From: a virus
IMG/VR virus record: IMGVR_UViG_3300046009_006975
Span: 1 to 38,173 of that record
DNA length: 38,173 nt
Strand: one strand, 5' to 3'
Of the stretch, positions 13,362-19,025 are shown in pieces (the stretch's first letter is position 1; every line of letters begins with the position of its first letter). The position numbers and the translations under genes were made by a program. Under the pieces are notes generated by a model, which was not told the DNA's origin, did not search any database, and saw only the letters and a program-made list of their open reading frames with translations.

Positions 13362-13648
13362 AGATCACCCCACAGGCGCGCACATACGGCGCGGAAACCT
13401 GCGGGCGGTCGGTGCAGACGGCTCAACGCGACACTTGGAGAAAGTCGCGGAACTGCTTACCAAATGCGAAGCGGCAACAACGCACTCCCGACCGCCCGCG
13501 ATGGACGGTCATGCCGCGCTGGTCGCCAGAAGGGCGAAGAGGTTGGCTGGTCAATCACTCGTCGCGGTCGGGCTTTCAACTCCGAGTCGCGACGGTCTTA
13601 AATCTACCAACGTTAGAACCGTTGTCAACAGACGTTATCGACAATCTG
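13362..13648 (-). promoter_or_regulatory. Early-operon leader region with promoter and hairpin
   Basis: No convincing gene lies in this 287-base gap. A minus-strand promoter is visible: TTGACA (13623-13628), 16-base spacer, TAGATT (13601-13606), predicting a start near 13594. The first 30 or so bases of that transcript form a hairpin (13561-13593; GTCGCG/CGCGAC and TCGG/CCGA). The predicted leader of about 230 bases before the first start codon is long for this compact genome, which suggests control at the RNA level. Confidence 0.45.
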
Positions 13649-13664
13649 TCAAGAATTCTTGACA
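13647..13664. repeat. 18-bp perfect palindrome at the end of the xis-like gene
   Basis: TGTCAAGAATTCTTGACA reads the same on both strands and covers the stop codon of the excisionase-like gene. A second TGTCAA lies at 13623-13628. Each arm resembles a -35 box or a protein-binding half-site. Candidate operator or recombination (attP) site. Confidence 0.5.
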
Positions 13665-13834
13665 GGGGGCCGCCCCGGTTTCCGCTCGGTGGATGCGTAC
13701 CGCTGCACGTCGGCGCGATCTACGATCCACATTCGAGGGTTGATCTGCATGCCCTTAATGATGCCCGTCTCGATCAGTTGCAAGACGCGACGACCCGACA
13801 CGCTCAGGGCCTCTGCGGCCTCGCGAACTGTCAT
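13649..13834 (-). CDS. Excisionase-like helix-turn-helix protein
   Basis: 61 residues from ATG 13834; in-frame ATGs at 13855 and 13861 are possible starts. The domain MTVREAAEALSVSGRRVLQL, then IETGIIKGMQINPRMWIVDR and DVQRYAS, is a MerR/HTH_17 DNA-binding fold: helix-turn-helix, wing and short helix. Xis proteins that steer integrases use this fold. It diverges from the integrase gene, supporting a role in excision direction or in int control. A candidate promoter (TTGATA 13891-13896, TACCAT 13869-13874) would start the transcript at about 13862. Confidence 0.7.
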   Translation of the reverse strand: MTVREAAEALSVSGRRVLQLIETGIIKGMQINPRMWIVDRADVQRYASTERKPGRPPVKNS

Positions 13835-14156
13835 CCCGTTGATAGATGCGCCCATGATCATGCCCGTAATGGTACCGAGGTCCGAACGATTATCAACACG
13901 AAAAGACACTGAGACGTTGAAAGCCCGCGACCAGTCGAAGCGGATACCGGACCTCACGGTGTCGGTCGTCTCAGTGTGTCAGCCTTCAATTGCCGAAGGT
14001 GGCAATCAGCGTTGCGAAAACGCCACATGGTCGCCCTGTCGGCAGGCCCGGTCCCAGACTTTTCGGAAACTGGGCGCAGATTTCGCAACGCTCTGTATCG
14101 CAGCCTCGCGGCTTTACACAATCGGCCCCCGTGTCTGCACTCCGGGGAGAACTCTT
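13835..14156. promoter_or_regulatory. int-xis divergent region with nested inverted repeats
   Basis: Non-coding by appearance. It holds three perfect inverted repeats: ACACTGAGACG (13906-13916) with its complement at 13967-13977; ATTGCC (13989-13994) with GGCAAT at 14001-14006; and AGCGTTGCGAAA (14008-14019) with its complement at 14081-14092. It also holds the proposed xis promoter. The arrangement is what integrase arm sites, Xis sites or an att region could look like. A clear int promoter was not found. Confidence 0.6.
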
Positions 14157-15023
14157 GTGACGCTTTACGAATTGTTCGCGCAGTACGAACGCGAAACGCT
14201 GGTTGGGGCGACGACCAACACCGTCGCCAAGTTCAGAATGGCCATCGCGGAACTGTCCCGCGTCGTCGAGCGGATTGCGACACTCGACGACTTGAGCGAC
14301 AGCAATCTCTCAGAGGTTGCCCGCAGGAAGCTGGCAGCGGGGAGAAGCCCAGCCACGGCCAACGTCAGCCTTCACAAGCTGGCCGCGCTCTGGTCGTACG
14401 CTCACCGCGACGGGCTGACCGCGAAAGGCCCGCGGGTCAAGGCGCTGACCGAGCCGGAACGCAACCCGACAGCCTGGAGCCGCGAGCAACTCGACCGGCT
14501 GTTCAAGGCCGCTGAGACGTACCCGGTGCCGGTCGGCCCGATCCCCGGCGGTCTCTGGTGGTCGGCGTGTCTCGCGGTCTTGTGGGACACTGGCGAGCGT
14601 TGCGGGGCGATCATTCACCGGGCGACGTGGGACGACCTGCTCGACGGCGTGCTGTTGGTCCCGGCCTCGCATCGCAAGGGGAAGACTCGCGACAAGCTCT
14701 ACACGCTGCACCCGGAGACAGTGGCGAAGCTGGAGCGGTTGAGAGAGTACAATTCGCCGCTCTTGCTGCCGTGGCCGCTCCACAAGTCGAGCCTGTTTAA
14801 CCACCTCAAGAGAATGCTACGCGGCGCGAACCTGCCTGCGGATCGGTGGCACATGCTCCACGCGATCCGCCGCAGTGTCGCGAGCCACGCGGCAAAAGCG
14901 GGCGCGGATGCGTCGGCGTTGCTCGATCACTCAGACGCCTCGATCACGCGGCGGTATTACATCGACAGGCGGATTGTGCCAGCGCCGAGGGCGATTGACG
15001 TGTTGTTTCGGCCTGCTGGCTAG
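14157..15023 (+). CDS. int: Tyrosine recombinase / phage integrase
   Basis: 288 residues from GTG 14157, seven bases after GGGGAG. The open frame continues upstream without sensible protein, so this start was chosen. Residues about 1-90 are an SAM-like core-binding domain (VTLYELFAQYERETL). The catalytic domain has R148 (DTGERCGAI), K176 (HRKGKTRDK), H235 and R238 (MLHAIRRS), H258 (LLDHSD) and the tyrosine pair Y267/Y268 (TRRYYID). All expected active-site residues are present. It would catalyse attP-attB integration. It is one of only two plus-strand genes supported here and converges on the small gene at 15020. Confidence 0.93.
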   Translation: MTLYELFAQYERETLVGATTNTVAKFRMAIAELSRVVERIATLDDLSDSNLSEVARRKLAAGRSPATANVSLHKLAALWSYAHRDGLTAKGPRVKALTEPERNPTAWSREQLDRLFKAAETYPVPVGPIPGGLWWSACLAVLWDTGERCGAIIHRATWDDLLDGVLLVPASHRKGKTRDKLYTLHPETVAKLERLREYNSPLLLPWPLHKSSLFNHLKRMLRGANLPADRWHMLHAIRRSVASHAAKAGADASALLDHSDASITRRYYIDRRIVPAPRAIDVLFRPAG

Positions 15024-15692: not shown

Positions 15693-15733
15693 GCTCATCT
15701 CTCCTCGTGCCGGTCAGTCATCGGCGGGACGTG

Positions 15734-15755
15734 GCCCGGTCGCGATTGACCGGGC
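15734..15755. terminator. GC-rich hairpin between two small genes, no U tract
   Basis: Perfect eight-base stem GCCCGGTC/GACCGGGC (15734-15741 and 15748-15755) with a six-base loop, 16 bases after the stop at 15771 on the minus strand. No run of T follows on either strand, so it is a weak candidate for termination and may instead protect an RNA end or pause polymerase. Confidence 0.35.
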
Positions 15756-15770
15756 GTTGGTGTTGGCGGG

Positions 15771-16485: not shown

Positions 16486-18180
16486 TCAGCCAGCAATCCC
16501 GGCATGGTCGCACCGCACCGACCAGTCCACTTTCGCCACGCTTCCCGGCGGCAGGTCGCGATAGAACGCCGGGTCGTAGTCCCCGTTGCCGCCGTGGTGA
16601 ATCACCGTTGACAGCAGCACGCTCGACCGCAGCATGACGCAGCCGAACCCGTTCCCGCCGACCACTTCGACGCCCGTGCCCGGCTGGCTGTACGTCGTGC
16701 CATCAGCCCGCCACGCGACATAGGACGGCTGGTAACGCGATCTGTACACGCCCGACACGCTGACGGTTGCCGGGTCGAAGCCACGCAGCAGACGTTCTAC
16801 CGCGTCGTCAGGCGGCAACACGTCATCCTCGACGATCATTGCCCACGGCGTCGCGATCTCTTGTCGCACCCGGTTGTAGATGCGCGGCATGGCCCGCTGG
16901 ACTGCCCTGTACGCTTCCTGCTGCGTCCGGTCCGCGTCTGCTAGCCCGCTATCGCCCACGTCGAGCGCGACGTATTGCACCTGCGGATAGTCGCACGTCA
17001 TCAGCCACGCCCGCACCTCTCGGGCAAACTCCGCATCTGACGAGGTGTTGACCAGCAGCAAACGCACCTGCCCGTGAGGCCACGTCTGCCACTCCAGCCA
17101 GTTGCGCAGCCTCGGCCACCACTTCCACCGGCCCGAGAGCGGCACCGCGATTGTCACGTCATCGGCTGCGATTGCCGCAAGGTCGTAGTAACTCGCCTGC
17201 CGCTGGACGATCCGCCACGACATTGATCCGCTGTGCTTGCGGTAGCGGTAGACCGATGGCGATTTCACCGCCCGCCAGCCGTCCCGCATGATCGCCCGCC
17301 AAAGTTGCCAGTCCTCAAGCGACAACGGCAGCTTCGGTTTCTCCAGCCCCCGCACGCTTTCGACGGCGACCCGCCTCACGACGCTCCCCGCGTGGATGTA
17401 GTTCTCCCGCGTGATGTCGGCCTTCGACGGATCGCGAGGGTGAACCATGCGCCCGGAGTCGGCCCCAAACGTCACCATATCCGTGAACGCAATTGCCGCC
17501 CCAGGGTCTTTGTCGAGAGCCGCGACCGCCGCCGCGATGTAATCCGGGGCGAGCATGTCATCAGCATCGAGAAAGCAGAGCAGGCCCGCGGAAGTCTCGG
17601 CCATGCCCGCGGCCCTCGACAGGTTGACATTGCCGCACTCGACCCGCAGATACTTCACGCCACGATCAGCGTACCGGGCCGCCACCTTTGCCGTGTCGTC
17701 CGTGGAAGTGTCATCGACGACCACGATTTCAGCAGGCTGAGCGGTCTGGGCGAGAACGCTCTCAAGGCATTCCGCGAGGTAGCTGCCGTAGTTGTGACAG
17801 GGGATGACGACCGCGACCGGCGCGACAGGCCGAGCGTCTGCCCGGTCGTCGCACCGGCGGCACACCTTGACCGCCGGAATGGCGTGCTGATTGACCGTGC
17901 AAAGTTGGTGCAGGTCGCACGCAAACACGTCCACCGCTGGCCCGCCGATGCAGCTTTCGAGGCGGCAGTTGTCTTTTCGCGAGAACGCCCCACGGTGAAC
18001 GCAGGGCAGTTCGTCCGGCGTCTTCAGGTCGCGTTCCGTCGCGGGCTTCGCGTCTTTGGCGAACGCCTCGCGGTAGTCAGCCCGCGTCTGGCAGAGGTGA
18101 TGCAGGCGCGGAGTCATCTGCCGACCGAATCGGTGGCACAGGCCGGGCGTGTCGCAGGTGCAGGGGGCTGGCGTGTTCAT
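16486..18180 (-). CDS. Two-domain glycosyltransferase with Cys-rich N-terminus
   Basis: 564 residues from ATG 18180 (ATGA overlap upstream). Residues 1-115 hold about 14 Cys in short spacings (CTCDTPGLC, LC, PCVHRG, NCRLESC, ACDLHQLC, VCRRC), probably zinc-binding. Residues 121-330 are a GT-A family 2 domain: VAVVIPCHNYGSYLAECLES, IVVVDDTSTDDT, and the metal-binding LDADD (204-208). A second GT-A-like half follows, with AMIVEDDVLPPDDA (EDD 451-453). It is the last late gene, after the adhesins. It might glycosylate virion tips, host surface sugars or DNA. The substrate cannot be read from sequence. Confidence 0.85.
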   Translation of the reverse strand: MNTPAPCTCDTPGLCHRFGRQMTPRLHHLCQTRADYREAFAKDAKPATERDLKTPDELPCVHRGAFSRKDNCRLESCIGGPAVDVFACDLHQLCTVNQHAIPAVKVCRRCDDRADARPVAPVAVVIPCHNYGSYLAECLESVLAQTAQPAEIVVVDDTSTDDTAKVAARYADRGVKYLRVECGNVNLSRAAGMAETSAGLLCFLDADDMLAPDYIAAAVAALDKDPGAAIAFTDMVTFGADSGRMVHPRDPSKADITRENYIHAGSVVRRVAVESVRGLEKPKLPLSLEDWQLWRAIMRDGWRAVKSPSVYRYRKHSGSMSWRIVQRQASYYDLAAIAADDVTIAVPLSGRWKWWPRLRNWLEWQTWPHGQVRLLLVNTSSDAEFAREVRAWLMTCDYPQVQYVALDVGDSGLADADRTQQEAYRAVQRAMPRIYNRVRQEIATPWAMIVEDDVLPPDDAVERLLRGFDPATVSVSGVYRSRYQPSYVAWRADGTTYSQPGTGVEVVGGNGFGCVMLRSSVLLSTVIHHGGNGDYDPAFYRDLPPGSVAKVDWSVRCDHAGIAG

Positions 18181-19025
18181 TCGGTGATGCTGATGATCTG
18201 TGAGGCCGTGCCTTTGAGGTGCGGGACTGTACCGCCGCACGTCAGGGACGACCCGTTGATTCCCGGAAACATGGCCAGCGAGTTTGCAGTCAGGTCACGG
18301 TGATACATCAGCGTCCCGAGTGTTGGCGCGAGGAGAAACGGGGCGCATGAGTCCACCGCGCCAGAACCGGGAATGAAGAATCCCCGCGTCGTTTCGATAT
18401 CGTTTCCGCTTCCAGTGTTTTGCCCTCGAATCTTCTGGATCGCACCGGCACCGTCGTGCCCTTCGCCGCAACCCCCCTTGATGTAAAACAGGTACTTCTC
18501 GCCCCAACCTGCTCCAGAAATGTCGATCCCCGGATACGTTACATCCGAGTCCATAACCCAGCCGATGCCGCACCCGCCAACCTGCGGAATCGCGTCGATT
18601 GTCGGCGTGCCCGAGAACACCGCATCGCGAGCGTAGAACATGCGGCCCGTGTAACCGTTACCGTTGAACATAGGACTGTTCAGGTCCAGCACGTTGAGCG
18701 TCTCGGAAACATACCAACCCGCAGGCCGGTACAGCTTCATCCCAATCGGATGTGCGGTTCCGTCGTTGCGGTAGATCGGCTCATCGGCAGATGTTGGGAT
18801 TGTCGCCTCATAGGTCAGCGTGATCGTTGATGACGACGAAAACAGCGTAGCGCACGTCAGGTCTGGACAGTAGACCGTGCCGTACTCTTCGGTTTCGGTG
18901 GGCGTCACCGGATAGGTGTACATCGACGACGAGACGTACAGCGTGTTGACGCTGTTCGACGCATCGCCCCGGAACATGCGATCCGGGCAGCAGAGCGTGT
19001 TACAGCAGCAGGCCCCCATTCCCAT
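18177..19025 (-). CDS. Tail-region hypothetical protein, Cys-rich start
   Basis: 282 residues; ATG 19025 chosen, with ATG 19019 also possible. It opens with a cluster of Cys (MGACCCNTLCCPDRMF), then long Ser/Thr/Gly strand-rich sequence with many Cys (GGCGIGWV, GGCGEGHDG, SSLTCGG). The composition suits a disulphide- or metal-stabilised extracellular beta protein, perhaps an adhesin or tail-tip part. No family recognised. It lies directly before the glycosyltransferase and overlaps it by four bases. Confidence 0.6.
   Translation of the reverse strand: MGMGACCCNTLCCPDRMFRGDASNSVNTLYVSSSMYTYPVTPTETEEYGTVYCPDLTCATLFSSSSTITLTYEATIPTSADEPIYRNDGTAHPIGMKLYRPAGWYVSETLNVLDLNSPMFNGNGYTGRMFYARDAVFSGTPTIDAIPQVGGCGIGWVMDSDVTYPGIDISGAGWGEKYLFYIKGGCGEGHDGAGAIQKIRGQNTGSGNDIETTRGFFIPGSGAVDSCAPFLLAPTLGTLMYHRDLTANSLAMFPGINGSSLTCGGTVPHLKGTASQIISITE

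Follow-up and report, generated by a model that had tools for sequence, protein, structure and literature searches.

A probable C4-like antisense RNA between the integrase and excisionase-like genes of a phage and its relatives

Phage immunity is known to depend on an antisense RNA in only a few cases, and RNAs of the C4 type belong to these. The annotated C4 RNA of phage P1, 77 nt long, folds into a stem, a hairpin, a second hairpin whose loop holds the segment b', a 7-nt junction containing the segment a', and the returning side of the stem; the annotated a and b targets of P1 match this junction and the second loop. According to extracts of PMC5320573, C4 is composed of three stem-loops and is cut by RNase P, its b' segment partly covers the ribosome-binding site and its a' segment gives specificity, a difference of 4 nt between the a' segments of P1 and P7 being sufficient to prevent cross-action. 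C4 was listed for Proteobacteria and phages by Weinberg et al. (extract of PMC2864571). In the satellite phage P4, a processed immunity RNA, the CI RNA, pairs with sites in its own transcript and prevents replication-gene expression in the lysogen, acting by transcription termination (extracts of PMC4825925). Within the titles, abstract openings and text passages covered by our literature search, in which subscription papers are sparsely represented, we found no C4-like RNA located between integrase and excisionase genes. The int-alpA RNA motif of Rfam occurs near integrase and AlpA-type excisionase genes.

Here we report the analysis of a virus record of 38,173 bases (the window, meaning this whole stretch of DNA), in which an integrase gene on the plus strand and an HTH_17/excisionase-like gene on the minus strand diverge from each other. 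An initial annotation had described three perfect inverted repeats of 11, 6 and 12 bp between the two genes, with outer arms about 50-60 bp apart. All three were recovered at the same coordinates: repeat 1 (ACACTGAGACG/CGTCTCAGTGT, 13906-13916/13967-13977) with 50 nt between its arms, repeat 2 (ATTGCC/GGCAAT, 13989-13994/14001-14006) with 6 nt and repeat 3 (AGCGTTGCGAAA/TTTCGCAACGCT, 14008-14019/14081-14092) with 61 nt. When 13857-14156 was shuffled 500 times by a first-order Markov model, with gaps of up to 90 allowed, 1.6% of the shuffles contained an inverted repeat of at least 11 bp and 0.8% one of at least 12 bp; two of at least 11 bp within 90 nt never arose together (0/500). The 6-bp repeat 2 taken alone is within chance expectation, 7-bp pairs occurring in 73% of the shuffles. 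The three inverted repeats are real, but they belong to two different things. The features of the region are, from right to left:

14157-15023, plus strand: gene for a tyrosine recombinase (integrase, Int) of 288 aa, with core-binding and catalytic domains only
13986-14135, no strand assigned: conserved non-coding block with repeats 2 and 3, giving no RNA structure signal, a candidate attP or promoter region
13905-13978, minus strand: putative C4-like antisense RNA element of about 74 nt, a three-way junction supported by covariation, alifold and model scores
13967-13978, minus strand: 5' arm of the closing stem (right arm of repeat 1)
13946-13966, minus strand: first hairpin (position of C4 P2), with a hypervariable stem of up to 6 bp and a conserved 9-nt loop, NYCGYGAGR
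13925-13943, minus strand: second hairpin (position of C4 P3), whose loop at 13929-13939 holds b' (CTGGTC on the minus strand, 13929-13934)
13916-13927, minus strand: a' segment CGGGCTTTCAAC, a mostly single-stranded junction before the 3' arm of the closing stem
13905-13916, minus strand: 3' arm of the closing stem (left arm of repeat 1)
13869-13896, minus strand: promoter-like hexamers for the HTH gene, TTGATA-16-TACCAT, by consensus match only
13649-13861, minus strand: HTH_17/excisionase-like gene, 70 aa from its ATG, between the RNA element and its target
13569-13580, minus strand: target a1, GTTGAAAGCCCG, fully complementary to a'
13547-13552, minus strand: target b1, GACCAG, which lies 16 nt downstream of a1 and is complementary to the loop holding b'

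Relatives for comparison were found by protein and DNA patterns. Three of them (L003, L004 and L006) carry nearly the same module and two (L010 and L011) are distant; Int identity to the window is 98% in L003, 96% in L004 and 48% in both L010 and L011, and the Int of L006 is cut off by the contig end. A seventh phage, L045, whose Int is 53% identical to that of the window, was found via the RNA itself. Pattern matches L018-L022 were judged to be due to chance and dropped. No relatives of Int were found in phage, plasmid and genome collections; a motif scan of genome contigs likewise gave none, and hence no integrated copy from which attL and attR could be read.

Repeat 1 is, on the comparison of these phages, the closing stem of a predicted 74-nt RNA with a three-way junction. 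Read on the minus strand, one side of the stem is followed by a hairpin, a second hairpin that carries b' in its loop, a single-stranded a' and the returning side of the stem, and all seven phages keep a closing stem of 12 pairs, a first hairpin of 6 pairs with a 9-nt loop and a second hairpin of 4-5 pairs with a loop of 10-13 nt. In a hand alignment of the seven, made with the structure in mind, 18 of the 23 pair columns contain a double change and 144 of 157 cells are standard pairs; since the alignment was produced in that way, three controls weigh more than these counts. When unadjusted MAFFT columns were used, RNAalifold gave z-scores of -7.5 (plus strand) and -8.2 (minus strand) relative to column shuffles, a level reached by none of 200 shuffles. 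A structured model built from four phages scored the held-out L011 at 44.3 bits, as against 15.7 bits for a sequence-only model. The held-out L010 was missed by the four-phage model with default filters and scored 18.3 bits with the filters off in a 601-base stretch, and a five-phage model scored it at 36.3 bits in 22.8 kb. No known RNA family in Rfam reached its threshold near the element. The initial annotation had seen in the outer arms a looping or arm-site geometry rather than an RNA hairpin, which for repeat 1 proved wrong: its arms change in step and enclose two covarying hairpins, and their distance across the phages, 47-51 nt, does not follow whole helical turns.

The partner that proved key had been overlooked: 13916-13927 is complementary in 12 of 12 bases to 13569-13580. 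The two targets lie about 335 nt downstream of the RNA on the same strand, past the excisionase-like gene and in the same order as a' and b', and both pairings (a'/a1 and b'/b1) are kept in 7/7 phages while the letters change. In five of the first six phages the complement of a' extends over 9-12 bases with at most one mismatch or gap at a spacing of 334-336; in L010 it comprises 10 of 12 bases, 7 of them in a row. In the first six phages b1 is found 14-17 nt beyond a1 on the minus strand. The b'/b1 pairs read CTGGTC/GACCAG in the window, CGGTTC/GAACCG in L003, CTGTTC/GAACAG in L004 and L006, CTTGTC/GACAAG in L011 and GCTAGA/TCTAGC in L010, and each phage's own b' and b1 match over 6, 7, 7, 7, 6 and 7 nt in the first six phages, as against 3-5 nt between classes. 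The true b'/b1 assignment was the best of 120 permutations of five classes and the true a'/a1 assignment the best of 24 permutations of four classes. Taken singly, some of these matches carry less: by chance, a shuffled target could match b' as well as b1 does in the window (P 0.11) and in L010 (P 0.08), and a' of L003 pairs over 12 nt with a1 of L004 and over only 9 nt with its own a1. Upstream of the RNA no second target was detected; matches in the 230 upstream nucleotides of the seven phages never exceeded 6 nt for a or 5 nt for b. No start codon or reading frame right at b1 is conserved across the phages; a small reading frame there was dropped, its frame shifting in L003 and its start codon not being conserved. 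At the level of sequence comparison, a conserved three-way junction with two complementary, covarying segments has been demonstrated.

The last scan used a loose RNA pattern in which part of a' was specified and the targets were left free, and it returned 39 stretches, 4 of them known and 35 new. One new locus, L045, was confirmed by the RNA model at 82 bits, the next match reaching 19.5; the other 34 were discarded, no R3 score above 19.5 bits being present among the matches listed. The L045 Int gene is directly beside its RNA. Its targets were found only after the RNA, in the DNA on the far side of the L045 HTH gene, and lay at the expected places, a1 matching in 12/12 bases and b1 over 9 nt, longer than in the window. 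In the L045 element (275-348) the letters of a' and b' are the same as those of the window although the two integrases are only 53% identical, as if the two phages formed one immunity group or had exchanged a module.

Placed beside C4, the element agrees in architecture and differs in several surrounding features. The closing stem and two hairpins that in C4 occupy about 77 nt are found here in 71-75 nt; neither RNA has a spacer between the stem and the first hairpin, and the spacers elsewhere are nearly equal. The a' junction measures 7 nt in P1 and 5-8 nt here; a' terminates with UCAA(C) in both P1 and 6/7 of these phages and with UCA in L010. In all seven phages b' is in the second loop, a' in the 3' junction and the targets are ordered 5'-a-b-3', downstream on the same strand, as in C4. 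In both systems, moreover, the letters of a' and b' vary within a constant frame while complementarity stays, which is the pattern of P1 and P7. On the other hand, the stem differs in sequence from that of C4, and the GG with which the RNase P site begins is missing, the minus-strand 5' ends being CACACT, CACGCT, TTCGAC or ACACGG instead of GGW. C4 of P1 has two target sites, whereas one was found here, and the C4 target adjoins the RNA, whereas the present one is behind the excisionase-like gene. The element itself lies between int and the excisionase gene, no ant or icd gene was seen, and the gene behind b1 was not identified as an antirepressor. A search of six phage records with the Rfam C4 model (RF01695; gathering threshold 45 bits) gave no match at E up to 10, while phage P1, the positive control, scored 68.8 bits. 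The element is therefore C4-like rather than a member of RF01695, as no Rfam match, GG start, upstream second target or antirepressor was seen. In the reverse direction, our model R3, run on 17.5 kb of P1, gave its best score to C4, at 16.3 bits (E 0.024) and on the correct strand, the next P1 match reaching 12.6, and the plus-strand model R1 gave no C4 match in P1; a score of 16.3 bits is little above background (12.6 for R3, 15.5 for R1), and the match lends modest sequence-based support to common descent and to the minus strand. The P4 CI RNA may be similar in structure as well; by description, it has targets, seqA and seqC, on both sides, whereas one was found here. The int-alpA motif shares a similar gene setting, but it has no Rfam match in the window, the comparison being one of location alone.

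It is quite likely that 13905-13978, read on the minus strand, specifies a small antisense RNA with the build of C4 from P1 and P7 and that this RNA acts on the genes behind a1 and b1. Because an RNA resembling that of P1 immunity would pair with two sites downstream of the excisionase-like gene, the phage group probably uses antisense control to hold back the genes lying behind it. Leftward transcription from the conserved block (13986-14157) would produce the RNA, whose a' and b' segments would pair, in cis or in trans, with the leader that precedes the genes located beyond the HTH gene. Pairing would then block translation of the minus-strand operon, as C4 blocks ant, or end its transcription early; since the P4 CI RNA acts by termination, the two outcomes are equally possible. 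The operon continues behind the HTH gene to YqaJ and RecT homologues. The prophage would thereby be kept quiet, and lysogens would be immune to any phage whose a' and b' letters match.

The minus strand is likely to be the RNA strand, and the main rival places the RNA on the plus strand, in the leader of the int mRNA, where it would regulate the integrase and the far sites would offer an alternative way of pairing within a long transcript of that strand. Wobble pairs do not settle the matter (125 standard cells on plus, 124 on minus). Alifold favours the plus strand in the four close phages (-36.7 vs -29.7), and single-strand energies are mixed. The integrase gene and the block that separates it from the element are conserved together. 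Promoter-like hexamers sit between the element and the HTH gene, with similar hexamers at the equivalent place in all five relatives tested (consensus match only), so the element may be absent from the HTH mRNA. Yet on the plus strand the order of hairpins and a' would be the reverse of that in C4, the target would lie upstream, in RNA antisense to the HTH gene, no promoter was seen on the plus strand, and it is R3, not R1, that finds C4. We accordingly hold plus-strand regulation of int to be improbable. A DNA-looping operator bound by the HTH or Xis protein would explain the symmetric arms of repeat 1 near a promoter-like site and the adjoining gene for an HTH-family regulator, but the arm spacing is not in helical steps, the HTH proteins of L010 and L011 differ while the arm core (CGGCAGAGG/CCTCTGCCG) is the same, and neither covarying inner hairpins nor covarying distant sites are expected of it; its probability is practically negligible.

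The attachment site is the remaining reading, and it turns on the block to the right of the RNA. The initial annotation had proposed an integrase/Xis regulatory or attachment region, of which the part concerning int/excisionase regulation held, while repeat 1 as a looping or arm site did not; of the arms whose conservation was at issue, those of repeat 1 covary as a stem, and repeats 2 and 3 are not intact in the most distant phages. As an attP, the whole region would have repeat 2 (ATTGCC-GAAGGT-GGCAAT) as a core with a 6-bp overlap and repeats 1 and 3 as arm or accessory sites. The region adjoins int; across the first six phages 13986-14135 aligns without gaps, and the window shares 67% identity with L010 and L011 there, against only 48% for Int. 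No codon period was seen in this block (substitutions 12, 18 and 19 by position, window vs L010), and the intergenic open frames were for this reason not taken as genes. RNA structure across the whole of 13896-14157 was rejected for the right half, in which column shuffles gave z-scores of -0.5 (plus) and -1.2 (minus) and the 3 helices with double changes (shuffled mean 1.1) were equalled in 19/200 shuffles; an int leader with a hidden Shine-Dalgarno site was dropped because the right half lacks a structure signal. Repeat 2 keeps 6/6 pairs in the close phages, one of them compensated, and 4/6 in L010 and L011; repeat 3 keeps 9-10 of 12 in the close phages and 8/12 in L010 and L011; both look broken in L045, as judged by eye on the alignment. 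The structural model of Int (pLDDT 66.8, moderate confidence) starts with a four-helix core-binding domain and has no N-terminal arm-binding domain, so that arm-type sites are not expected and a lambda-type arm layout appears unlikely. Two-domain integrases, such as that of Brujita, can use short attP sites, and Brujita Int was among the fold matches of the integrase. Block 13986-14135 may hold promoters or a short attP; an attP spanning the whole region is very doubtful, given that repeat 1 shows the behaviour of a paired stem enclosing two hairpins and that no integrated copy showing attL and attR was found.

Apart from the antisense RNA favoured above, we regard as evenly poised the wider proposal that, in an environmental temperate phage lineage, perhaps of Planctomycetota, a C4-type antisense RNA between integrase and excisionase genes serves as an immunity switch, and that the letters of a' and b' define superinfection immunity groups readable from sequence. 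The groups would be the window with L045, L004 with L006, and L003, L010 and L011 each by itself; it would follow that the C4 kind is wider and more diverse than the Rfam model covers. What is new here is the C4 architecture in phages that this model misses, its tie to the integration/excision module and the target letters that change in step. The comparison gives directly testable immunity groups in phages available only from metagenomes, together with model R3 for finding more.

Several further observations concern the window and its relatives. Directly behind a1/b1 in L010, at 1409-1648 on the minus strand, is a second HTH-like gene, a candidate regulated gene, with a weak match to DUF1580 (E 0.006, below the family cut-off); DUF1580 is typical of Planctomycetota, and a host in that phylum is a guess from this match. 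L010 also has a tRNA gene by Rfam at 1026-1097 on the minus strand (43.7 bits). At 2491-3891 of L015, an Xre-like HTH gene is divergent to a more distant Int (32%), the frame behind it is presumably PEP-CTERM-like by its motif, and no R3 match or C4-like element was found in that record. In the window, a perfect 20-bp palindrome (CTGTCAAGAATTCTTGACAG, 13646-13665) spans the HTH stop codon, possibly an operator; L011 has an exact copy of 17 of these bp at the equivalent position, and the palindrome is imperfect in L003, L004, L006 and L010. The non-coding stretch 15702-15767 is 98.5% identical to L004 although the adjoining genes are far less similar, and part of it also matches L003 and L010. 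A family 2 glycosyltransferase gene (16486-18240, minus strand) is conserved in L003 and L004.
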